Positions 1-16,052 of a stretch of 16,052 nt of DNA are shown piece by piece. A program made the position numbers and the translations under genes. The notes under the pieces were generated by a model. The model was not told the origin of the DNA. It saw nothing but the letters and a program-made list of their open reading frames with translations, and searched no databases. The stretch comes from Rikenellaceae bacterium (GTDB lineage Bacteria > Bacteroidota > Bacteroidia > Bacteroidales > Rikenellaceae). How positions within the stretch are numbered: the first letter of the stretch is position 1; each line of letters opens with the position of its first letter. The stretch spans positions 1 to 16,052 of the forward strand of contig JAJQAW010000175.1 in the NCBI GenBank assembly GCA_021203585.1, in the 5' to 3' direction.

Positions 1-1
1 T

Positions 2-292
2 TTCTGGAATGTGTGGTGGGAAAGTCATCCTTTCGATCTGGGAAATGAAAATCAGGTGCTGACCGTAGTTTTGGATTCCCTCGAATTAAGCAAATACCCT
101 TCGTGTCATATTTGGGTTACTGTGTTCGACCATTATGAAATCCAGGTAGGACAAAATATTCAGTGGGTGGACCGGCCGGTGGTACCGGGCGACAGTCCCT
201 TGGAGATTCGGGTTCCTGTGAAAAGCGGTTACTACGGATATACCGAGGTGTACGAGATCGATTTTATGGCGGAATTAGATTACTCCTTATAA
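2..292 (+). CDS. C-terminal fragment of an unrecognised protein
   Basis: The reading frame is open from the left edge of the window and ends at a TAA at 290-292, so the gene begins upstream. A GTG at position 11 is in frame, but the codons before it (Phe-Trp-Asn) show no start signal, so I read this as the tail of a longer gene. The visible 96 residues are rich in aromatic and beta-branched residues (for example VWWESHPFD and IQWVDRPVVPG) with few Lys, as in beta-sandwich domains of secreted Bacteroidetes proteins. I recognise no family, and no signal peptide can be seen because the N-terminus is missing. The gene ends five bases before a strong hairpin terminator that separates it from the convergent nifJ. 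Confidence 0.6.
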   Translation, partial: FWNVWWESHPFDLGNENQVLTVVLDSLELSKYPSCHIWVTVFDHYEIQVGQNIQWVDRPVVPGDSPLEIRVPVKSGYYGYTEVYEIDFMAELDYSL

Positions 293-296
293 TTAA

Positions 297-332
297 ACAG
301 CGATGGCGGCCTTTAAGGGCCGCCATCGCTGT
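297..332. terminator. Bidirectional hairpin terminator between convergent genes
   Basis: A 15-bp perfect stem (297-311 with 318-332) closes a six-base loop, between the TAA of the upstream + strand gene at 292 and the TGA of nifJ at 348. The T-rich tract is better on the - strand (TTTAATTATAA after the stem) than on the + strand (ATTATAG). It probably ends nifJ transcription and also blocks read-through from the left. Confidence 0.85.
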
Positions 333-347
333 ATTATAGAAATCGGA

Positions 348-3896
<3,549 letters not shown>

Positions 3897-3961
3897 CTTA
3901 AAAAGAAGGTTATAAAGTTAGGTTATACATGAATGATCAGAGATGTACTTATAAAGTGCCA

Positions 3962-3969
3962 CAAATATA
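3962..3969 (-). promoter_or_regulatory. nifJ promoter, -7 element
   Basis: On the - strand this reads TATATTTG, a perfect match to the Bacteroidetes -7 consensus TAnnTTTG, placed about 65 nt upstream of the nifJ ATG. The -33 box is poor: TGTTA is the closest match at the expected distance. The start site would be near 3955, giving a 5' leader of about 60 nt. Confidence 0.55.
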
Positions 3970-4101
3970 GTGATTTTCTCCGAAAATTAACAGCCCTTTT
4001 ACTGTTCAATTACTAACAGAAAAAATCGATCCCGGGAGTGCTCGTATCGGTCCGGAAACAAAAAAATCCGGGCCTTCATCCAGTTATGATTTCTTCATTT
4101 T

Positions 4102-4138
4102 TTTGTAAACGGATTGAAATATTCGATGTGTACTTTTA
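4102..4138 (+). promoter_or_regulatory. Possible promoter of the metalloprotease gene
   Basis: TTTG at 4102-4105 and TACTTTTA at 4131-4138 (7 of 8 to TAnnTTTG) are separated by 25 bp. That is longer than the roughly 20 bp usually quoted for Bacteroides promoters, but equals the spacing of the candidate promoter before susC. The predicted leader to the ATG at 4209 is about 65 nt. Apart from this and the nifJ promoter, the 3897-4208 interval shows nothing I can support. Confidence 0.35.
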
Positions 4139-4208
4139 ACCCGGTTTATACCCATGCGCGAGCCGAAAAGCATCCAGAGTAGGCAATCATAAATTCCCTT
4201 TTAACACC

Positions 4209-6119
4209 ATGAAAAAATTACGGACCGTTTTACTGCTGTTAACCGTTATCTTTCTCTTCGATTCCTGTATCCAGGATGTCAACGATCACTCCGGAAAGCA
4301 AGCCTCCGATGCCCTCTTGTCCGAACATACCCGGATCATTGCCTCCTGGGGATTCGACGTCTCGGATTTATACCAACTGGAGGAATTCTATGTGGTGGAA
4401 GGTGATCTTCTATTTCCGAAGGATTCTATTTCCGTGATGGCGCAAACCAGACAGTACTATGCCAAAAACCGGCTGGTCGACCCCATTCATGTCCATGATA
4501 TCAAACTGTGGATCGATCCGCAAATGTCCACCAATTCCTTGTTCGATTGGCGCTCCTCCATCCGACAGGCTATCGTGGAATGGAACAGTATCCCCGAGTG
4601 TTTGGTGTACATGCGCATCGTCTCCTCGGAAGAGGAGGCGGATATCAAAATCCGCACCCGTACCCTTCCTGCCGGCACAATCGGGATGGCTACGTTTCCT
4701 TCCGGCGGCAGACCGGGCTCGGTGCTTTATTTAACGGATGCGGCTTATTACAGCGAATCGCAGAAAATCTTCACCGTGGTGCATGAACTGGGGCACGCTT
4801 TGGGTTTATACCACACCGACAGCTCTCAATTCGAGGTGATTCTGAACGGCCTGGTATTGATTCCGGGAACCCCGGATTCCGATTCGAAATCCATCATGAA
4901 TTCCTATTTAAGACTATGGGCCGGATTTAGCGAATTCGACATCGTTGCCATGCAGTATTTATACCCCATGCCCATCCGGTATATGACCATGTCCTATATC
5001 TCGGAGTTCTCTCTGGATCAAATCGATTTCGACCTGGACGGTAGAGAGGTGGAAATCGAGTACAGACCCGTATCCGTTTCCGATCAGGTTTTCGGTCAGG
5101 GAGTTTCTCACGCCTTAGCCTTCATCAATCAAGAGATTTCAGAATCTGAATCTCCCTTTAGAATTCTCGATCTGACCATTCCCGAGCAGGCGAACGGTTG
5201 GGGTAAAATGATTTTTACAACCGGTGTTTATTCGACCGGAATGGAAATGATCCTGGAAATCGCGACCCAAAATTTTCCGTTCCGAATCATCCAATCCCCC
5301 ATTTCCCGGAAATATGAGATCGAAAATCAGGACAAGCTAAAGATTTATCCGGGTACCGTTTTCGATATCGTGCTGAACGGCTCCACTGCCGGGATTACCT
5401 ACTACCTTACCCGTGCCGGGGAGGTGGTAACCAGTAAATCGGGCCATGGCGGAAAACTGATTTTTTCCGGTGCCTACGGTCCGGGAACCTATAAAATCCG
5501 GGAGAACGACCGGCAGTTAAGCGGCGCCCGAACGGTTTATTCCGCTTCGGTTTTCGAGCATCCCTATTTCCAAGTGAACCGGAATGCCAGCCACATGATC
5601 GTCGATGGCGACGGCGGAATTTTCTCTTTTACCATTCCCACTACGGAATTGATGGATGTGGAGGAAGTCCGACAAATTTGCGCCGACTACAATGCCGGAA
5701 AAGTCTCCTATTGGCCGGCGGAGTATTACCGCCTGGAAGTAAGTGCTCATACGGACCAGGCCTGCGAATTCACCATCACCTGTGCTCCGAATCCCGGTGT
5801 AGAAGTGGATCTGGAAACTCATTTCAAAGCCCGGTGGGGAGATCGGGAATGCACGATTTATATTTATCAGGACGAAGAGGGAGAAGTCGGTATCTTCGAA
5901 CTCTCTCGATCGGCCAATGGAGACGGAAGCAGAAATATCCTGTTGAGTGGTTCGCAGCATCTGGTAAAGTATCGGCTTTATAAGGACCAGCAGCTCGTTA
6001 CCACCCTGGAAGGCAAAGGAAATCCATTGACCTTCACCCATTTACCACTTGGCAATTATTCCATTTACGCAGAATGCCGAGGGCGTTCCTTTAAAATGAA
6101 AGGAGAAGTAACCGATTGA
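4209..6119 (+). CDS. Secreted lipoprotein zinc metalloprotease (HExxHxxGxxH, matrixin-like)
   Basis: A 636-residue protein starting with a lipoprotein signal peptide: basic MKK, a hydrophobic stretch, and the lipobox FDSC with lipidated Cys20. The zinc site is HELGHALGLYHTD: ligands His192, His196 and His202, catalytic Glu193. The Met-turn is SIMNS with Met230, as in metzincins (matrixin/M10-like and the Bacteroidetes HEIGH-type peptidases). The catalytic domain spans about residues 85-260. The remaining 375 residues contain two related beta-type repeats (about 388-430 and 578-620) with the pattern LxGS...YxLxxxGxxV...G..L.F...GxYxI, suggesting Ig- or SprB-like modules. It probably acts on the cell surface; the substrate is unknown. 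It appears monocistronic, with its own promoter and a terminator 25 nt after the stop. The family call is strong, the exact subfamily is not. Confidence 0.85.
   Translation: MKKLRTVLLLLTVIFLFDSCIQDVNDHSGKQASDALLSEHTRIIASWGFDVSDLYQLEEFYVVEGDLLFPKDSISVMAQTRQYYAKNRLVDPIHVHDIKLWIDPQMSTNSLFDWRSSIRQAIVEWNSIPECLVYMRIVSSEEEADIKIRTRTLPAGTIGMATFPSGGRPGSVLYLTDAAYYSESQKIFTVVHELGHALGLYHTDSSQFEVILNGLVLIPGTPDSDSKSIMNSYLRLWAGFSEFDIVAMQYLYPMPIRYMTMSYISEFSLDQIDFDLDGREVEIEYRPVSVSDQVFGQGVSHALAFINQEISESESPFRILDLTIPEQANGWGKMIFTTGVYSTGMEMILEIATQNFPFRIIQSPISRKYEIENQDKLKIYPGTVFDIVLNGSTAGITYYLTRAGEVVTSKSGHGGKLIFSGAYGPGTYKIRENDRQLSGARTVYSASVFEHPYFQVNRNASHMIVDGDGGIFSFTIPTTELMDVEEVRQICADYNAGKVSYWPAEYYRLEVSAHTDQACEFTITCAPNPGVEVDLETHFKARWGDRECTIYIYQDEEGEVGIFELSRSANGDGSRNILLSGSQHLVKYRLYKDQQLVTTLEGKGNPLTFTHLPLGNYSIYAECRGRSFKMKGEVTD
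5370..5500 (+). repeat. Protease C-terminal repeat, copy 1
   Basis: Encodes residues about 388-430 of the metalloprotease, beginning VLNGSTAGITYYL and ending GPGTYKI. It aligns with copy 2 at Leu-x-Gly-Ser, Tyr-x-Leu, Val-Val/Thr, the central Gly-x-Gly and the closing Gly-x-Tyr-x-Ile. Similarity is at protein level only. Confidence 0.5.
5940..6070 (+). repeat. Protease C-terminal repeat, copy 2
   Basis: Encodes residues about 578-620, beginning LLSGSQHLVKYRL and ending PLGNYSI, near the C-terminus. It matches copy 1 over about 43 residues without needing long gaps. Such repeats occur in adhesion or substrate-contact parts of secreted Bacteroidetes proteins, so a binding role is a reasonable inference. 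Confidence 0.5.
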
Positions 6120-6143
6120 GAGAGCATCCCGGATCAACCCGAG

Positions 6144-6170
6144 AAGCAGATAGTTCCTATCTGCTTTTTT
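6144..6170 (+). terminator. Rho-independent terminator of the metalloprotease gene
   Basis: A 9-bp stem (6144-6152 with 6158-6166) has a five-base loop and a run of six T at 6165-6170. It lies 25 nt after the TGA at 6117-6119. Confidence 0.85.
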
Positions 6171-6214
6171 ATTAAATAAAAGTGGTCCTCCCCCGCCCAT
6201 TAGGTTGCACTTCC

Positions 6215-6237
6215 ACAGCCGCTGCTTCGGCTGTTTT
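6215..6237 (+). terminator. Second, weaker terminator-like hairpin
   Basis: ACAGCCG (6215-6221) pairs with CGGCTGT (6228-6234) around a six-base loop, followed by TTT. It may back up the terminator at 6144 or simply be structure upstream of the susC promoter. Confidence 0.35.
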
Positions 6238-6314
6238 CCGCATCAAACACCCTCTGACTCCAGTGCAGGGGGCATCCGACCGGAAAGCCCGGATTGTTAC
6301 CGTTTCTTAACCCC

Positions 6315-6351
6315 TTTGTAGGGACATAGAGATTTTCGACCCCTACTTTTG
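6315..6351 (+). promoter_or_regulatory. Promoter of the Sus-type operon
   Basis: TACTTTTG at 6344-6351 is a perfect TAnnTTTG -7 element, and TTTG at 6315-6318 lies 25 bp upstream. The start site would fall near 6357-6360, about 320 nt before the susC ATG at 6677. No ECF sigma or FecR-type anti-sigma gene is next to it, so the regulator must be encoded elsewhere. Confidence 0.6.
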
Positions 6352-6676
6352 CGGCAGTTAATCATTAGGATGGAAAGCTGAAATATGGAAAAATGAATCG
6401 AAGGTATTGTAAAGAATGACAAAATCAAATGAAAAATGAATTTCCCGCGCTATTGTTACATACCGTCCTCCTGCGCAGCTGCCTGAGCCGTCCCCCTTGG
6501 AGTGAACTCGGAACGGCCGATCAACCATCCCCTTTGTCTGGAGATTTACAAACGGGAATACCTGCAGCCTCCGCCTCCATGGATTTCAGGTTAAAGTGAA
6601 AACTTTACCCTGTACGCTTCACATAAAAATAGAATACCGAACGAAAGAAACACCTACACTTATTGATCACAATTTT
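6352..6676 (+). other. Long 5' leader of the susC operon
   Basis: About 320 nt lie between the predicted start site and the susC ATG. The first part (6370-6440) holds a chain of very short ATG-TGA frames, three of whose starts overlap the stop of the preceding frame in ATGA: 6370-6381, 6385-6396, 6393-6419, 6416-6439, then the 56-codon frame from 6429. I recognise no riboswitch. Leaders of this length are common before susC genes and can carry post-transcriptional control, but no specific element is evident. Confidence 0.4.
6429..6599 (+). CDS. Possible 56-residue leader ORF
   Basis: An ATG at 6429 opens a 56-codon frame ending in TGA at 6597-6599, entirely within the susC leader. The peptide begins MKNEFPALLLHTVLLRSC, which loosely resembles a short signal or lipobox sequence, then becomes Ser/Pro-rich with no family resemblance. 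It may be a leader peptide, a remnant or chance. I recognise no function. Confidence 0.2.
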   Translation: MKNEFPALLLHTVLLRSCLSRPPWSELGTADQPSPLSGDLQTGIPAASASMDFRLK

Positions 6677-9600
6677 ATGAATTTCAAATTCTACAACAGC
6701 ATGAAAGTTCTGTTATCTATGACCCTTATGGCCTTTTCGGCGGCCCGGGTACAGGCGCAGGACCGTATCAACGGAACGGTCTTCGACAGTGACGGGAAAA
6801 CCCCGCTTTCGGGAGCCAGCGTGGTGGTGAAGAACCGGGGAATCGGCGCCATTACCGATGCTCACGGGAATTACACGATTGCCGTTTTTCCGGAAGATGT
6901 CTTGGTTATCGGCTATTTAGGTTACGATGAACAAGAGACTGAAGTGAGAGAACGGAAGAAAGTCGATGTGACACTGGTTTCTTCGAATTTCGAGATGGAG
7001 GAACTGGTGGTCACCGCACTCGGGCTTACCCGTCAACAGCGTTCTCTGGGGTATGCCACTACCACAGTGAGTGGGGACGATTTGACTCAAACCGGTTCCG
7101 GAAACTGGGTCGACGCACTTTCCGGCCGGGTAGCCGGGTTGAAACTGGACCAGGCCGGTACCGGATCGATGGGATCGATCCGAGCCACCATCCGGGGGGA
7201 TAACTCGCTCAATTACGGCAACAACGAAGTATTGGTAGTCGTGGATGGGGTTCCGATCCATACCGGAGGGGTGGAAACCTCGAGCGGTTCCAATTATTCC
7301 AACAGCGACGCGCCGGTGGATTTCGGTAACGGTTTGTCCGACCTGAATGCGGACGATATCGAATCGATTACCGTGCTCAAAGGAGCGGCAGCCACCGCAC
7401 TGTATGGGTCACGGGCCGGAAACGGCGCTTTCATCATCACCACTAAAGCCGCCAAAAAACCGAAAGGGCTCGGCATCAGTGTCTCCTCCACCACCAGCTT
7501 CGACCGGGTCATGCGCTGGCCGGATTTCCAGAAAGAGTACGGCGGCGGAAACGATAACGGTGAGGTCGAATACAGCTTCTGGACCGTCGGCGCCGCAAAT
7601 GCTACGGACGGCAACGCTTACCGAAGAAATCAGGGACGCTACGCTTTCGGAGAAAAATACGATGCCCGAAAACTGCGCATACAGGTATCACTCGCGCAAT
7701 TGGGAGAATGACCCCTATACGCCGCTTCCGTGGGTCTACCAAGACAATTGGTATAAAGGATTTTTCCAGACCGGGGCCACCACCAAAAATATCATTACGG
7801 TGAACGGTAATAACGGCGAGGGATCCAGCATGCGCCTCTCAGTCACCGATATGCGGAGCCGGTGGGTGATTCCCAATACGCCCAGTTCGAGCCAGACTTT
7901 CTCGGTCAATGCGACCCACAAAGTCAACTCAGCCATAACCCTGCGGGCCGTGGTCAATTACCTGCGCCGGGATTCGGACAATGTACCTTACAGCGGATAC
8001 GGTTCGAAAAACCCGCTTTATTCATTGATTTGGGCCACCAGCAACCACGATATCAATCAGGGATTCAAAGCGGAATACTTCTCCGGCCGATTCGACGATC
8101 CGGCGGTGCGGGCGGCCAACGCGCTTTTCTACAACGCCGAAAACTCATACAATCCCTATTTTACGGTGTACGAAGAGGTCAATACGGTGGACCGCGACCG
8201 GGTTTATGGAAATTTCAGCCTGACGATCGACATCACCCCTCGGCTGAGACTGCTGCTCCGCTCGGGGCTGGATATGAACAACGAATTCCGTACCCAGCGC
8301 GCGCCGAAATATTCGGGATCTACTCCGGGCGGATTTTACCGCGAACAAACCCTTCGCAGTTACGAATGGAACAATGAATTCCTGATCACCTACAACCAGT
8401 CCCTGCTGGACGATTTGTTTTCACTGGGGGCCGGATTCGGGGGAGTGAACTGGAGAAAAGAGAATGCCAATACCCGGTTGAACGTTCCGCAACTGAACGA
8501 AGACTACGTGTTTAACCTCAGTAACGTCCACGAAGATTATATGCTGGAAGCGACCGACCGCAGAACGGCCAAAGAAAAAAACAGTTTCCTGGGCTACCTC
8601 AATCTGGCCTGGAAGAATTACCTGTACCTGGACATTACGGGCCGGAACGATTGGAGCAGTACGCTGGATCCGGAATACTGGAGCTATTTTTACCCTTCGG
8701 TGGGACTGAGTGTAGTCGTGAGCGACGCTTTTTCCCTGTACCGTACCATACCGTGGATCGACCTGATCAAATTCCGGGCTTCCTGGGCGCAAGTCGGGAA
8801 CGATACCGATCCCTACGCCATTATGGAGACGGCCCTGGATACCGATTATTCGGGAGGATTCCGGGTTCCCACCACACTAGCTACCCGTGACCTGAGTCCC
8901 GAGCAAATCAAAAGTGTGGAAGTCGGAGTCGATCTTAGCCTCTTTCAAAAGCGGATCACCTTCGACGCCTCCTATTACCATACCGTTACGGACAAACAAA
9001 TCATCTCGATCCTGGTGGATGCCCTGACCGGTGCGACTACCATGCGGCGGAATGCCGGAGAAATGCTCAATCACGGAGTCGAACTGGCCGTCTCATTCGT
9101 TCCGGTTCAACGCCCGGCCGGCGGCTTGCGCTGGAGTTTTTCGATGAACTGGTCCAAAAACTGGAATCGATTAAAAAGCATGTACGAGGGATGGGACAAT
9201 AACTCGCCGCTGCAAACGGCCATGGGAACCACCATCGGCAACCGCGTGTATGTTTATTCCTACGTAGGGGAATCGATGCATTACATCTACGGCAAGGATT
9301 ACGTCCGTGCTCCGGAGGGAAGTACGTATACCGACGAGCAGGGCCGTACGGTGGATTGTTCGGGTATGAAAATAATCAACAGCAATACCGGAATGCCCGC
9401 GCTGACGGAAAATCCCGATCAGCGGATCGCCAAGGTAAATCCCGATTGGTATGCCGGTATGACTCATAACCTCAGCTATAAAAACTGGAGCCTGGGCATG
9501 CACTTGGCCGCACAGTACGGCGGACATACCTTCTCGGCCAACCATTTTGCACTGGCTTATCAGGGAAAATTGAAAAATAGTTTGCCCGGACGGTACGACG

Positions 9601-9995
9601 GATTGGTGGTAGACGGTGTGAATCAACTCACCGACGGCTCCGGCCATGCGACCTACCAAAAGAACAACACCGTAACGGAAAATATTCAAACCTATTACAA
9701 TGCCTACGTATACATCCGCGACAATGTCAGGGAAAACACCTTCAGCACCTCCTACCTGAAATTGAAAAATGTACGCCTGGATTATACTTTCCCGGCCCAC
9801 TTGCTCCAGAAAACCGGATTTTTGCAAGGCGCCTCGTTGGGAGTTTACGCGACCAACGTATTCTGCATCACCAAATACCCGATGTTCGATCCGGAGACCG
9901 GAAACCTACAGGGCACCAACATCCACCGCGGTGTAGAAACCGGAGCGCTTCCGATGACCCGCAGTTTCGGAGTGAATATTAACCTGTCATTTTAA
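6677..9995 (+). pseudogene. susC: SusC/RagA-family TonB-dependent outer-membrane transporter, frameshifted
   Basis: SusC proteins form the outer-membrane barrel that imports ligands with TonB energy, under a SusD lid. The ATG at 6677 gives a signal peptide MNFKFYNSMKVLLSMTLMAF ending VQA|Q near residue 27; in-frame codons upstream to a GTG at 6596 are probably untranslated. A carboxypeptidase-regulatory-like domain (about 31-105, INGTVFDSDGKTPLSGASV) comes next, then MEELVVTALGLTRQQRSLGY, and the plug with VVVDGVP near 189 and ITVLKGAAATALYGSRAGNG near 235. The frame then breaks: residues up to YDARKLR (about 334) are in one frame, and YRYHSRNWENDPYTPLPW onward continues one base later, through the barrel to the typical ending RSFGVNINLSF. 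Removing one base near 7679 restores about 1105 residues, normal for the family. As written, translation stops at 7711. susD starts 8 nt after the stop. Confidence 0.9.
7643..7680 (+). other. +1 frameshift site in susC
   Basis: Codons before this stretch read in the frame of 6677 and codons after it in the frame of 7680. The best junction is CTGCGC|A|TAC, with one surplus A at 7679. Runs of five A (7643-7647) and four A (7669-7672) nearby are alternative sites for the extra base. Confidence 0.85.
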
Positions 9996-10003
9996 GATCG
10001 ATT

Positions 10004-11593
10004 ATGAAAAATATACTTAGAAATTTAGTTTTGGGTGCGGTTTTATTCAGCTTCGTCCCAGGCTGAACCCATGGCTTCATCGATACCAACACCAACCCCA
10101 ATTCGGTGATGTATGAAGATTTAAAAGCCAAAAACTTTCTGGAACCGCTCATTTACGACGCTTCCCGGACTTGGAGCTATTATACCTGGTACTGGTGCGA
10201 CCAGATTATGCAGTACGAAGCATTTACCGGCACCACCCGCGAGGAGCACCGCTATAAGATCGGTGAACAGGACTGGAACTTCTGGTACACCAACTTTTTG
10301 AGCCGTTGGGCAGTAAACGCCGACGCCATGCAACAGGCCGCCCACCAAGAGGGGTTGACGATCCTGGAAGCTGTAGCCATGACTTTGAAAGCCTATTACA
10401 TGGCCAACCTGACGGATATGTTCGGCGATATCCCTTGTTCCGAAGCCTTTATGGGCCGGGAAGTGGTACTCAAACCCCGCTACGATACTCAGCAGGAAGA
10501 TTACCGACAGCTATTCGAACTGCTGGAAACGGCTAACCGGATGTACGCCTCCGGAGAGAGTTTTCCCTCGAGTCTGACCGGTCAGGACGGCATGTTCGGC
10601 GGAGACTTAACGGGATGGCGCAAATTCAACAACTCCTTTTACCTGCGCTGCTTGATGCGGGTAAGCGGGCGTTCGGTCATGAATGCGGCAGCCAAAATGA
10701 CGGAAATACTGGCCGATCCGATCCAATACCCGATTTTTGAATCCAACGCCGACAACGCTGCCGTACACTACGGTACGACTGCCCCTTACCTCAGTTATTT
10801 TTCCGAAACCACCGAACAAAATTTCAACAGCGAACGCCGGATGACCAAACAGTTCGTCCAGATGACGGTACTTTCGGACGACGATAATCCGGAACAGGAA
10901 TTCCTCGATCCGCGGCTGCCCATCTGGGCGCACCCGGATGGAAACCGTCCCTGGAAAGGAGTGATTTCCGGCGGGGACCGCCTGGATGCCGATTTCCAGG
11001 AATCTACCCGCAACGCTTCCAAACTGCGTTATTCGGTATTCTGCCGAAACAATATGCCCTACACGCTGATGGATTATGCCGAGGTGCAGTTTATCTTCGC
11101 CGAAGCCGCCCTGAAAGGGTACATTCCCGGTGGTAAAACGGCAGCCAAAGGCTATTACCAGGCCGCCATTGCGGCCTCTATCGAACGGTGGAACGCACAG
11201 GCTCCGTATGCCGAATTGACCGAAGATCAGGAAATCACGGAAGAAAAAATCGAGCGATTCCTCTCCCATTCGGCCGTAGTTTTCGATACCGGCCTCTCGG
11301 ATACGGAATTAAGCAAACGCATCGGCGAACAAAAATTCTTGGCCCTGTTCTGGAACGGCATGGAGGCCTGGCACGAATTCCGCCGCACCGGATACCCGCA
11401 GCTGGAGATTGCCAGCGGAGCCGTATACAACGATTGCATACTGCCGACCCGCTTCGCCTACGTGCAGAATTCGATCGGTTCGAATCCAGAAAACGCGCAG
11501 GCGGCCATCGACCGCCTCAACGGAAACAACGACATGAAACAGCCCGTCTGGTGGAGCAAACAGGCCATCGACAGCAATTATTATCACGATTAA
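10004..11593 (+). pseudogene. susD: SusD/RagB-family surface lipoprotein (SusD-like_2 type), stop codon at the lipobox Cys
   Basis: SusD proteins cap the SusC barrel and bind ligand at the cell surface. The ATG at 10004 gives MKNILRNLVLGAVLFSFVPG, a normal lipoprotein signal, but codon 21, where the lipidated Cys should be, is TGA (10064-10066). The same frame then continues with THGFIDTNTNPNSV and about 500 residues of SusD sequence: helical segments such as WYWCDQIMQYEAFTG, MANLTDMFGDIPCSEAF, GWRKFNNSFYLRCLMRVSGR and the late FWNGMEAWHEFRRTGYP motif, all typical of the SusD-like_2 family. Full length would be 529 residues. Re-initiation at GTG 10106 or ATG 10109 would make a protein without export signal. 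It lies 8 nt after susC; its TAA overlaps an ATG of the next gene (TAATG at 11591-11595). Confidence 0.9.
10064..10066 (+). other. Nonsense codon TGA in the susD lipobox
   Basis: The codon follows Val-Pro-Gly of the signal peptide and sits where the invariant lipobox Cys (TGC or TGT) is expected. A single third-position change to A explains it. Confidence 0.85.
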
Positions 11594-12291
11594 TGTGCGA
11601 ATCCATGATTAAAAGAGTGTTTTTTCTGGCCCTGCTGCTGGCCGTTTTTACCGCAGGCTGGGCACGGCCTATCAAAGGCGTAGTGCGCAGTGGAAACGAA
11701 AAACTGGCCGGAGTGGTGGTCACCGACGGCTACCGGTTCACCGCGACCGATAAAAAAGGACGGTTTTCTCTGGAGATAGACCCGCAGGCCCAGTTCATTT
11801 CCATCGTTACCCCTTCCGGCTACATCTGTCCCTATGAGAGCGGAAGCCCGGTTTTTTACCGGAAGATCGAATCGGGAACCGATTATAATTTCAATCTCAT
11901 CCCTTACGGAAATAAAGAGGGGTACGTGCTTTTTGCCGTAGCGGATCCGCAGACGGGCAACGACAACCACTTCAAACGGTTTGAAGCGGAAACGGTCGCC
12001 GATCTGCGGAAACACTCGGCCGAACACTCGGTAAAAGGCCGGGCCATGCTGGGTCTGATGCTGGGCGATATCGTGTGGGATAACCTGCCGTTGCTGCAGG
12101 ATTATAAGAAGTCGATGGCCGGTCTGGGCTTCCCGGTCTATCCGGTGATCGGAAACCACGATTACGATATGAACGCACAAGGAGACGATGCGGCAGCCTG
12201 GGCTTACCGGGCGCAATTCGGTCCCGAATACTATGGATTCAACAGCGGCAACGAATATTTTATCGTACTGGACAATATCGTATACGATACC

Positions 12292-12294
12292 TAA
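12292..12294 (+). other. Nonsense codon TAA in the phosphoesterase domain
   Basis: It interrupts DNIVYDT and KRYAEAIDQRQLDWVENYL, which are continuous in this family, between the GNHD and AHS metal motifs. The frame is unchanged on both sides. Confidence 0.85.
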
Positions 12295-12840
12295 AAACGG
12301 TATGCCGAAGCCATCGATCAACGACAGTTGGATTGGGTGGAAAATTACCTGGCTTACGTCCCGCCCGGCTCGCATGTGGTTCTATGCGCCCATTCGCCGT
12401 TTCATCTGAACCGGAAACTGATCGACAATGCCGACGTGCTATTCGGACTGCTCGACGGTTATCGAGTACGGACCCTGTGCGGCCACACCCACATCAATTC
12501 CAATTATGAAATCCTGCCCGGCATCCTCGAACACAACATCGGAGCCTGCTGCGGCGCCTGGTGGACGGCTGACTCCAATAAAGACGGCACGCCGAACGGA
12601 TATCAGGTATTTGTTTCCAACCCGGGAGCATTCAGCTGGTACTACAAAAGCATCGGTAGAGAGGCCGGCTATCAGATCGAGGCGTACGACCGCGGAACCT
12701 TTCCCAACCGGGCCCAATGCGTGGCGGTGAAAGCTTGGAACCGGGACCACACCTGGAAAGCCGAATGGTACGAAGACGGCGTATACAAAGGCGAGATGGA
12801 GCCCTTTGTAGCGCGTGACCCCGGATATATGCGTTACTTG

Positions 12841-12843
12841 TAG
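12841..12843 (+). other. Nonsense codon TAG between the phosphoesterase and GDPD parts
   Basis: It follows ARDPGYMRYL and precedes ARRDAGKAEVGQYKQAVERD, inside the phosphoesterase C-terminal domain, which resumes with SPGAREVEVVVTDRFGN. It is therefore not a natural domain boundary stop. A Glu codon GAG would fit the site. Confidence 0.75.
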
Positions 12844-13849
12844 GCTCGCCGGGATGCCGGAAAAGCCGAAGTGGGACAATACAAGCAGGCTGTAGAGCGC
12901 GACTTTTATTTTGCAGCCAAACCGTCCCCCGGCGCGCGGGAAGTGGAAGTAGTGGTCACCGACCGTTTCGGCAATCGGTACGGAGAAAAAATCCCGCTGC
13001 GGGCGGTCGAGGTACAAGCACACCGGGGAGGCATGGGATTATGGCCGGAAAACACGATCCAGGCGATGTTGAATGCCGTCCGGATGGGGGTCCATACGCT
13101 CGAAATGGATCTACAAATCACCCGCGACAACCGGGTAGTAGTCTGTCACGATCCGGTACTGAGCTGGCGGTATGCCAGCCGCCCGGACGGACGGCCGGTG
13201 GAAAAAGATTCGGACCGCTTTGTGCTCTATCATATGAAATACGATTCCTTGCGCCGTTTCGATGTCGGCACCGGAATCCATCCGAATTTTCCCGATCAAG
13301 AAAAAACGGCGGCCCACATCCCCTTGCTCTCCACGCTGATCGATGCCGTGGAAAGCTATACCCGTGAGAACAACCTGTCTCCGGTCCATTACAACATCGA
13401 AATCAAATCTTCCGAAACGGGTGAAGCGGAGGGAATCGTCCCTGATTATAAGCACTATACAGACCTGGTCATGCAAGTATTGACGGCCAAAAATCTCGGA
13501 AGCCGGCTGTTGGTGCAGTGTTCCGATGTCCGGACCCTGGATTACCTGCACCGCCATTATCCGCAGGTCCGACTGGCTTATCTGATTGCGGCGGATAAGA
13601 GCGATTTCGAAGCCAATATGTCCATGCTCTCTTTTACACCGGAGTGTTACAGCCCCAACCATTCGCTGGTCGATCAGACGTTGGTCGATCGCTGCCGCCG
13701 TCGGGGAATGACCCTGATACCCTGGACGGTCGATCAAAGCGAGGAGACGCAGCGGTTGGTGGAGCTGCAGGTGGACGGCATCATTACCAATTATCCGGAT
13801 CGATTGTTAAAAATAACTCGGAAAATACTAACCAATTAAGCAAGAAAAT

Positions 13850-15157
13850 ATGAAACCTACCCCTAAGGGAAACCAGAAAAAAAGAGAATGGGCGCTCGCA
13901 GCGCTGTTGCTTCCCGCCTTGCTGTTTACAGCCTGCAACCCCGACGATAAACCCTCCGGAGATCCGGAATTCCGGTTCGAGACGGGTATTTCGGGCATCA
14001 CAGTGGCCGCAGTGGATACGGAAGCGAAATTTGTCATCCGATCGAACCGGGATTGGGAGTTTCAAGCGGATGGAGAGGAATATTGGCTGACCATTTTTCC
14101 GGCCGTTGGCTCGGACGACGGCATCATCAAAGTTTCCTTCACGGAGAACACCCTCTTTGAAGACCGTTCGGCATTTTTCCAGGTATTGGTCCACGGTCAA
14201 CCGCACGCCGATACCCTCTTACGCATTACGCAACGATCGGTCATCCCGCAGCTCAGCTTTCCGAAAGTTTCGGAAGGGAGGCTGAAAGCGTCCAAATGGG
14301 GAAATACCTTAGCCGTAGAAATCAGCGCCAATGTGGATTGGGTAGCCGCTATCGAGCCTTCAGGGCCCGGAGAAAGTTTCGATTGGGTAACCGTCGATGC
14401 CGAACAAACGGCGCCGAGCTCATTGGTGATCCGCGTGGAGGAGGTGCCGGAAGGGATGGAAGAAGAACAGGAGCGCAGCGTGATTGTTCGCCTTACGGCG
14501 CCGGATTTCCCGCAAGTGGATACCTGCTTTACCATTTACCAGGTGAATTCTCCTCCGGTCGAAGGACTACCGCAAACCTGGACCCTGACGTTGCTGGGCA
14601 GCGAACAGGAACGGGCGGAGCTGTGGCTAAGCGAACAAAAAATTTATCCGGATGATACGGAACAAGCGTGGATCCAATGGGTGAAAGGGCCGAATCCGGG
14701 AGTAGATGAAATCGAAACTTCTTACGATGTCAGTAATTCGGACCCTCGAGTGAGTTGCGGACGGGAAGGGGATGCGTGGATGATCGTTGTGCCTGTGAAA
14801 AACGGAAATGAGAACCAACCGGTGAGAATCAGCGGACAACTTCGTAGTTCTGGAGCCGGCGTTGCCTGGTATTATTTCCAGTATTCCACCGACGGTCAAA
14901 ACTGGACGACGGTCGACCCTACCGTATACACCTTTGACAGCGGGGTGCAAGTGGACCACACTGAAGGGATTATGTGTCGGGACGGTTCAGCCTATTGGCC
15001 CTTTGAAAAAACAGTGGTCATCGAACAGGAAGTGCAAGAGGGAAACTATTACTTCCGGTTATTGGTAACCACCGACGTTACCCAAAACGGAACTTCCACC
15101 CCCTCTACTACCGGTACCGCGAGGCTTGCCCGGCTCCTGAGCGTTGAAGAATTGTAG
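13850..15157 (+). CDS. BACON-domain surface lipoprotein
   Basis: A 435-residue lipoprotein: a long basic N-terminus (KGNQKKREW), a hydrophobic core and the lipobox LFTAC with Cys29. CNPDD follows; acidic residues just after the Cys resemble the surface-export signals of Bacteroidetes lipoproteins. Two BACON-like domains follow, about 48-128 (FVIRSNRDWEFQADG, then WLTIFPAVG and LLRITQ) and 133-232 (LAVEISANVDWVAAIEPS, then FDWVTVD and TCFTIYQ). The last 200 residues form a separate domain I cannot name with confidence, with GVAWYYFQYSTDGQNWTTV as its best marker. BACON domains are linked to ligand binding or spacing in Sus loci, so a SusE/SusF-like accessory role fits. It starts 11 nt after the fusion gene and is the last, and only undamaged, gene of the operon. 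Confidence 0.8.
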   Translation: MKPTPKGNQKKREWALAALLLPALLFTACNPDDKPSGDPEFRFETGISGITVAAVDTEAKFVIRSNRDWEFQADGEEYWLTIFPAVGSDDGIIKVSFTENTLFEDRSAFFQVLVHGQPHADTLLRITQRSVIPQLSFPKVSEGRLKASKWGNTLAVEISANVDWVAAIEPSGPGESFDWVTVDAEQTAPSSLVIRVEEVPEGMEEEQERSVIVRLTAPDFPQVDTCFTIYQVNSPPVEGLPQTWTLTLLGSEQERAELWLSEQKIYPDDTEQAWIQWVKGPNPGVDEIETSYDVSNSDPRVSCGREGDAWMIVVPVKNGNENQPVRISGQLRSSGAGVAWYYFQYSTDGQNWTTVDPTVYTFDSGVQVDHTEGIMCRDGSAYWPFEKTVVIEQEVQEGNYYFRLLVTTDVTQNGTSTPSTTGTARLARLLSVEEL

Positions 15158-15177
15158 TTTCCCGAATTCTTATCCCG

Positions 15178-15209
15178 AAGAGCTGCTTGCTGTTAGGCAG
15201 CTCTTTTTT
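15178..15209 (+). terminator. Rho-independent terminator of the Sus-type operon
   Basis: AAGAGCTGC (15178-15186) pairs with GCAGCTCTT (15197-15205), loop of ten bases, followed by a T run to 15209. It lies 20 nt after the lipoprotein stop codon. Confidence 0.85.
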
Positions 15210-15442
15210 GATGAAGAAAGACAGATGAAAGCCATGCAGCCCGTAAATTCCGGGTTTTGGATTCCTGATCTCTGTCCGTCCGCCGGAGATCGGGATCGGG
15301 GCAAATCCCCGGGACCGCGCCTGTTCAAGAGTTTTTCCGCTCCGCTCCTTTCGCCCCCTGCCGAATAGCGTGCATGCGGTCGATCATAGCGAAAGTGCAT
15401 TTGCCTGATCCTATGACCACGAAAGCCCGGATAGATGCATAG
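15210..15442. other. Intergenic stretch with no recognisable gene
   Basis: Bounded by a + strand terminator on the left and a - strand terminator on the right, so probably little transcribed. Short frames on both strands give low-complexity, Arg/Ser/Pro-rich peptides without family resemblance. I see no tRNA, repeat or insertion-sequence end. Confidence 0.5.
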
Positions 15443-15469
15443 AAAAAAGGCTATCCGATCCGGATAGCC
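15443..15469 (-). terminator. Rho-independent terminator, secG strand
   Basis: On the - strand GGCTATCCG pairs with CGGATAGCC around a three-base loop (15449-15469) and is followed by six T (15448-15443). The + strand lacks a T tract after the hairpin, so it works for leftward transcripts, most likely secG, whose stop is about 235 nt upstream. Confidence 0.8.
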
Positions 15470-15703
15470 CTATACTTTCTAAATTCTGCCGACGGTAAAG
15501 TCCGTTCACCGATACTCGCCGAAGACACTCCCGGACCGGCATTTAGTGCGGGACATGGACCCGGTTCTACCACCCCAGTCCTACCGGACATCCCGGTTAC
15601 TTTTCTGATTGACAAGTTCTCCTCTCCCGCTTCGAATTCAATCCCTTTCCGCGGCAGCGTGCGGGTATGCACCGACACCGATGGGTGCAGAGTTTTACCC
15701 GAC
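15470..15703 (-). other. Long secG 3' region, no convincing coding sequence
   Basis: About 235 nt lie between the secG stop and its terminator. A 103-codon frame overlapping the secG end is Arg/Ser/Pro/Gly-rich and unlike any protein I know. A small hairpin, TGCACC (15668-15673) with GGTGCA (15684-15689), sits near the secG end. The stretch could be an untranslated tail or hold a small RNA, but I cannot name one. Confidence 0.35.
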
Positions 15704-16051
15704 TTATTCTTCTCCTTCCTCTGCGGTAGGAGCTTCCGGAGCCGGCACGATCGGCAATTCAAACGACTGCGTTCCTTCTACCGACTGCTGAATGGTTTGT
15801 TCCAGGGCTGATTTACTCGCGTTGATATCTCCTTTGGGGATACTCATCGTTGCGGCCAAGCTTAATACCACAATGGCAATGGCCAAACCCCAGGTAAATT
15901 TTTCCAGGATATCGGCCGTTTGTCGCACCCCCATCACCTGGTTGGATGCGCCGAAATTGGCCGCCATACCGCTCTTCGGACTCTGAGCCAAAACAGTCAA
16001 AATCATCAGCACGCAGGCAATCAGGATCAGGATCACAATAAATGTATACAT
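15704..16051 (-). CDS. secG: Protein translocase subunit SecG
   Basis: SecG is the small inner-membrane subunit of the SecYEG channel and aids SecA-driven protein export. The 115-residue chain starts MYTFIVILILIACVLMILTV, the first transmembrane helix. The family signature loop follows (LAQSPKSGMAANFGASNQVMGV), then ADILEKFTWGLAIAIVVLSLAATM with the second helix at about 52-71. The C-terminal tail is Pro/Glu-rich (VPAPEAPTAEEGEE), a length and style usual in Bacteroidetes SecG. The ATG at 16051 lies one base from the window edge, so its promoter and upstream neighbour are not visible. Confidence 0.95.
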   Translation of the reverse strand: MYTFIVILILIACVLMILTVLAQSPKSGMAANFGASNQVMGVRQTADILEKFTWGLAIAIVVLSLAATMSIPKGDINASKSALEQTIQQSVEGTQSFELPIVPAPEAPTAEEGEE

Positions 16052-16052
16052 T

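Follow-up and report, generated by a model that had tools for sequence, protein, structure and literature searches.

The 16,052-nt stretch of DNA analysed here (the window; Rikenellaceae bacterium, assembly GCA_021203585.1, contig JAJQAW010000175.1, positions 1-16,052 of the forward strand) carries, at 11605-13839, a gene in which a calcineurin-type phosphoesterase is fused to a GDPD, directly behind a SusC/SusD pair. On balance, it is probable that in intact relatives this gene belongs to a Sus-type locus for glycerophosphodiester utilisation, in which a SusCD importer is followed by a single periplasmic protein made of two unrelated phosphodiesterases, the operon of the window's own genome being a recent pseudogene. 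Glycans are what SusCD pairs are commonly linked with, and the locus names a concrete, testable class of non-glycan ligand. It recurs and combines a SusCD pair with two phosphoesterase folds unrelated to each other and, in some relatives, with a putative glycerol-3-phosphate importer and oxidase; the MetallophosN/C family would thereby gain a likely activity.

A sequence-only reading had described both enzymes in one frame of the window. The two domain sets do share a single frame (11605-13839) with their catalytic residues kept, yet this frame is not open, as TAA (12292-12294) and TAG (12841-12843) cut it into three pieces. In the read-through protein, MetallophosN (residues 25-98), Metallophos (151-297), MetallophosC (309-459) and GDPD (473-732) each score above the Pfam cut-off, with PF16371, PF00149 and PF16370 reaching 72.9, 32.9 and 121.8 bits, respectively; the GDPD domain (PF03009) has the TIM-barrel fold by prediction. 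No PhoD-family model was among the five Pfam matches of this protein (E 0.001). The window carries the majority residue at 19 of the 19 catalytic or ligand positions checked, 18 of them invariant across 37 aligned rows. In GDPD, H473, R474, E500, D502, H515 and E599 are invariant in all 37 rows, the window included, and we take them to be the catalytic His pair and the metal-binding E, D and E. Apart from its breaks, the sequence has the look of a gene that worked until recently, since the catalytic positions are kept and the window differs at only 1 of the 61 columns that show no variation among the other 36 rows.

Intact fusions of ~745 aa, with conserved catalytic residues, exist in relatives. 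A search for two-domain homologues, which had been proposed along with the sequence-only reading, covered 5.8 billion proteins; scoring was confined to the 7,997 with the most words in common, of which 173 passed. PF16370 and PF03009 occur together in 92 of the best 120 of these 173 (hand count; 33-51% identity). The two halves are therefore not always encoded as two genes, though they are in one relative (G207). Among 268 genomes of the window's family, 2 had a full-length match (its own and G192); the counts were 2 of 393 for its order (its own and G631), 1 of 395 for its class (its own) and 15 of 299 for the family of G631. The fusion is thus patchily distributed, and frequent in that one other family. 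A contig scan with the read-through protein returned one weak relative, in Filimonas zeae, which was not used. A single origin of the fusion is not supported: a tree built from 37 MetallophosC-protein rows requires seven changes of the fused state, at least four of which are forced by well-supported branches, and fusion or fission therefore recurred.

Gene neighbourhoods were tabulated at all 16 full-length fusion loci besides the window (L069-L084), at 20 loci with an unfused MetallophosC gene (L085-L104) and at 15 GDPD-only loci (L105-L119). Neighbours were counted by tblastn with fixed bit limits, the background frequency of GlpT being assumed; contigs or stretches end close to the gene in L069, L075, L080 and L083, so absences there are weak. 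At the fusion loci, SusC was in view in 10, SusD-like_2 in 5, SusD_RagB in 7, GlpT in 4, GlpA in 2, GH31 in 5 and GH89 in 1. The unfused MetallophosC loci had SusC in 16, GlpT in 11 and GlpA in 7. At the GDPD-only loci, GlpT was found in 13 and SusC in none, the GDPD gene directly adjoining the GlpT-like gene in 13 of the 15 (L105-L113 and L115-L118). Two unfused GDPDs with visible starts at these loci are lipoproteins.

The gene order of several loci joins these elements. L069, from the window's family (G192), reads GlpA-GlpT-SusC-SusD-fusion-BACON; in L082 the order is GlpA-GlpT-TIG/MetallophosN/C-SusC-SusD-fusion-BACON, its GlpA being truncated where the stretch ends; and L085, in which each half has a gene of its own, shows GlpA-GlpT-GDPD-SusC-SusD-MetallophosC. 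The names GlpT and GlpA are likely for these neighbours, as judged from sequence models: GlpT was the best NCBIfam model for 8 of 8 transporters scanned, glycerol-3-phosphate dehydrogenase was the best model for the two oxidases scanned, and DAO and DAO_C scored above their Pfam cut-offs in the latter. Glycan hydrolases are not the only companions of SusC/SusD, although GH31 and GH89, the two glycosidase families searched for systematically, do occur; the loci that carry them either have the other type of SusD or show no SusCD pair. In L072, GH89 (NAGLU), GH31 and the fusion lie in a row (3438-11059, plus strand).

A separate lipoprotein of ~655 aa with MetallophosN/C lies beside SusC in many loci (L078, 13374-15353 on the minus strand; L082, L087, L095 and L102-L104), and a TIG domain was found in the L078 copy. 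In motif I, these separate TIG-MetallophosN/C proteins retain D-x-H, which the fused form does not have. In Bacteroidota, a lipobox Cys followed by acidic residues is a sign of surface export; a lipobox Cys followed mostly by acidic residues was present in 9 of 9 TIG-MetallophosN/C and 5 of 5 BACON proteins inspected, while 16 of 16 intact fusions, judged by eye, lack a lipobox. This distribution suggests an arrangement as in Sus systems: the ligand would be bound and cut at the surface, imported by SusCD and cut again in the periplasm, with GlpT as the last step.

Accordingly ordered from the outside inwards, surface lipoproteins (BACON and often the separate TIG-MetallophosN/C phosphoesterase) would act with SusC/SusD to deliver a phosphodiester ligand to the periplasm. 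There the GDPD domain would, going by its family, free sn-glycerol-3-phosphate, and the calcineurin-like domain would open linkages that GDPD cannot. Where the genes are present, family and gene order suggest that a GlpT-like antiporter would import glycerol-3-phosphate with its phosphate and that a GlpA/GlpD-like enzyme would then oxidise it. An oligomer is an attractive ligand, as small glycerophosphodiesters would hardly need a SusCD pair. By analogy, and as a suggestion only, GH31 and GH89 might strip sugars that block GDPD. A wider version, which we put forward tentatively and think rather doubtful as a whole, is a Sus-type system for the glycerophosphate polymers of other organisms (teichoic acid or deacylated phospholipid oligomers): a surface phosphoesterase, SusCD import and two non-homologous periplasmic phosphodiesterases, one exo-acting and the other endo-acting or of different stereo- or linkage preference, would feed GlpT and GlpA, the GH31 and GH89 of some relatives would remove GDPD-blocking sugar substituents, and the window would represent a lineage losing the system and much of its SusCD repertoire. 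If true, the bacteria would feed on the walls or membranes of their neighbours.

In predicted folds of intact homologues the calcineurin-like domain is of the GpdQ type, its closest solved fold being that glycerophosphodiesterase, and its most likely role is that of a second phosphodiesterase unrelated to the GDPD. Several observations weigh against the glycerophosphodiester locus. Rv0805 is nearly tied with GpdQ in fold; in sequence profile the purple acid phosphatases are closest (7.5e-5 versus 0.003 for GpdQ); and motif I is D114-x-Q116 in 37 of 37 rows rather than the canonical calcineurin-like D-x-H, which we take GpdQ to have. GlpT is visible in only 4 of the 16 fusion loci. The other SusD type occurs in 7 of the 16, three of these with GH31, and the fusion therefore serves other loci too. 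The unfused MetallophosC loci were chosen by score from the better-scoring rows of the scans of the window's family, its order and the family of G631, and not at random, many weaker and a few strong rows being omitted. The eight transporters reach 479-567 bits with the GlpT model, whose curated cut-off is 632.55, and two of them (L105 and L092) pass the PgtP-subfamily cut-off instead; the two oxidases also fall below the NCBIfam cut-off of their best model.

The sequence-only reading had the GDPD make glycerol-3-phosphate or another monoester and the attached domain remove its phosphate, the locus then serving phosphate scavenging. The purple acid phosphatase match favours this, yet removal of the phosphate would deprive GlpT and GlpA of their substrate, and among the 36 phosphoesterase loci (fusion plus unfused MetallophosC) GlpT is found in 15 and GlpA in 9. 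Both are present at six unfused MetallophosC loci with no GDPD in view (L087, L091, L095, L102, L103 and L104). Such neighbours suggest that glycerol-3-phosphate enters with its phosphate; as the nearest fold is moreover a glycerophosphodiesterase, we consider the dephosphorylation step unlikely, while the broader proposal of scavenging phosphodiester ligands appears to fit the intact loci. The calcineurin-like domain might instead act on another kind of bond, such as that of a phosphoanhydride or a sugar-phosphate diester, with GDPD acting elsewhere on the same ligand. This is less probable again, because GpdQ, Rv0805 and the purple acid phosphatases all score higher in fold, and because GlpT plus GlpA as neighbours indicate glycerol-3-phosphate.

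In the window, the SusC, SusD-like_2, fusion and BACON genes all lie on the plus strand with intergenic gaps of ~10 bases. The SusC-like TonB-dependent receptor (6596..9995) is split by a frameshift near 7680 into two pieces in different frames, and the SusD-like_2 lipoprotein (10004..11593) is interrupted by a TGA (10064-10066) close to where its signal peptide ends. The first piece of the fusion gene (11605..12294) encodes a signal peptide without a lipobox, MetallophosN and the start of Metallophos, up to the in-frame TAA; the second (12295..12843) the remainder of Metallophos and most of MetallophosC, up to the in-frame TAG; and the third (12844..13839) the end of MetallophosC plus the GDPD domain. 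The BACON-domain lipoprotein (13850..15157) is intact, with a lipobox visible in its translation, and is likely a surface ligand-binding protein. Neighbours of this kind without a glycosidase had been noted from the sequence, and the Pfam scan agrees: no glycosidase was found among the six window proteins scanned. Upstream of the broken SusC, the same scan identified an M57/M10-like metalloprotease (4209-6119, plus strand), which is intact and has a lipobox-like signal peptide. The outer neighbours, on the opposite strand, are presumably NifJ and SecG.

With SusC, SusD and the fusion all broken, the operon of the window is a recent pseudogene, and the system described in the sequence-only reading does not work in this copy. 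Reassignment of a stop codon was rejected: TAA, TAG and TGA all occur as lesions and SusC is frameshifted, which argues against a changed genetic code.

Errors of assembly or sequencing, with the operon intact in the organism, are the other way to account for the lesions. Behind the window stands a single assembly, which is 82.3% complete and fragmented into 404 contigs. A search for another assembly of this species found none, the one 100% match of the GDPD fragment being the window itself and the next matches ~50%, so that the lesions are known from this assembly alone. The conserved catalytic residues and invariant columns would also fit such errors, as would the TAA that lies within one of the own genome's three matched tRNA-synt_1 genes. 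However, stops were counted in 10 of the 20 own-genome SusC rows above the cut-off (some possibly terminal) versus 1 of 39 in the relatives G192 and G207; frame changes were assessed in the own genome, and stops only in these two relatives. Of the 20 over-cut-off contigs, 18 were read (C207 and C168 were left out), and 10 of these bear internal stops or frame changes. Overall, 15 of 23 judged SusC contigs are broken, which is not a random rate as contigs were partly chosen for stops, and some of the frame-change calls depend on alignments at 22-30% identity; C89, C164 and C291 fell below the 150-bit limit and were left unjudged. In the sister species (G211), no SusC row above the cut-off was found.

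Among the controls, 11 of 11 GTP_EFTU rows were free of stops, each being a short stretch of ~90 to 280 codons. Five tRNA-synt_1 rows came from three contigs, and the one with an internal TAA counts against a clean contrast. As a weak control, the relatives' flank proteins were compared with 21 own contigs; apart from SusC, SusD and the fusion, this yielded just four cases, all of them unbroken. Open reading frames of at least 700 aa still number 7.4 per 100 kb in the own genome versus 10.2 in relatives, and the coding fraction is 0.86 versus 0.96 in the relatives' stretches. Within the own assembly, at its 82.3% completeness, neither GlpT nor GlpA (no DAO_C match) was found, nor a second GDPD or second MetallophosC. 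We take the decay as real and assembly error as very improbable; from these rows, the SusC repertoire of the genome seems to be decaying, and the window seems to point to a genus losing SusC.

Among the literature matches listed, none describes this fusion or a locus with SusCD, GlpT and GDPD together, and a search by Pfam names turned up no account of the MetallophosN/C family, subscription journals being mostly outside both searches. In Bacteroides thetaiotaomicron, one report places a gene of the MetallophosC type and one for an alpha-N-acetylglucosaminidase in the range BT0438-BT0449, the MetallophosC-named gene lying within BT0446-49 beside family 10 glycosylhydrolases and adjoining a SusD/TonB pair, and the GDPD gene BT4727 near another TonB-receptor/SusD pair (PMC10434189). 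For the wall teichoic acid of B. subtilis, another report describes exo-acting GlpQ together with endo-acting PhoD, GlpQ being halted by glycosylated or alanylated units (PMC7086022).

Among solved structures, GpdQ of Enterobacter aerogenes (3d03, 2zo9 and 2dxl) is a calcineurin-fold glycerophosphodiesterase with 17-19% identity to the domain here; the fusion differs from it by the extra MetallophosN and MetallophosC domains and by D-x-Q in motif I, with Rv0805 practically tied. The Cytophaga hutchinsonii GDPD (3ch0) is a single-domain protein, whereas here two enzymes are fused.

The closest published system found is PUSI of Flavobacterium johnsoniae, which likewise combines a SusCD-like pair and two phosphodiesterase-type proteins of the periplasm, one pf00149 and one pf16670; such a pair co-located with phosphoesterases is what the window and the SusC-bearing fusion loci have. 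We take pf16670 to be a phospholipase-C-like family, presumably with fold kinship to GDPD, and the meanings that we give to both Pfam numbers are assumed in the same way. PUSI comprises PusCD1, Fjoh_4172 (pf00149) and Fjoh_4173 (pf16670) and is induced by phosphate depletion (PMC8115612). In Table 1 of the same paper, the names of Fjoh_4172 (phospholipase C, pf00149) and Fjoh_4173 (CpdA, pf16670) look swapped relative to their Pfam numbers. PUSI has its two enzymes as separate genes, one of them of pf16670, whereas the locus described here has one fused gene with GDPD (PF03009); this fusion and the GlpT/GlpA context set it apart, neither being seen for PUSI in the available part of that description (PMC8115612).
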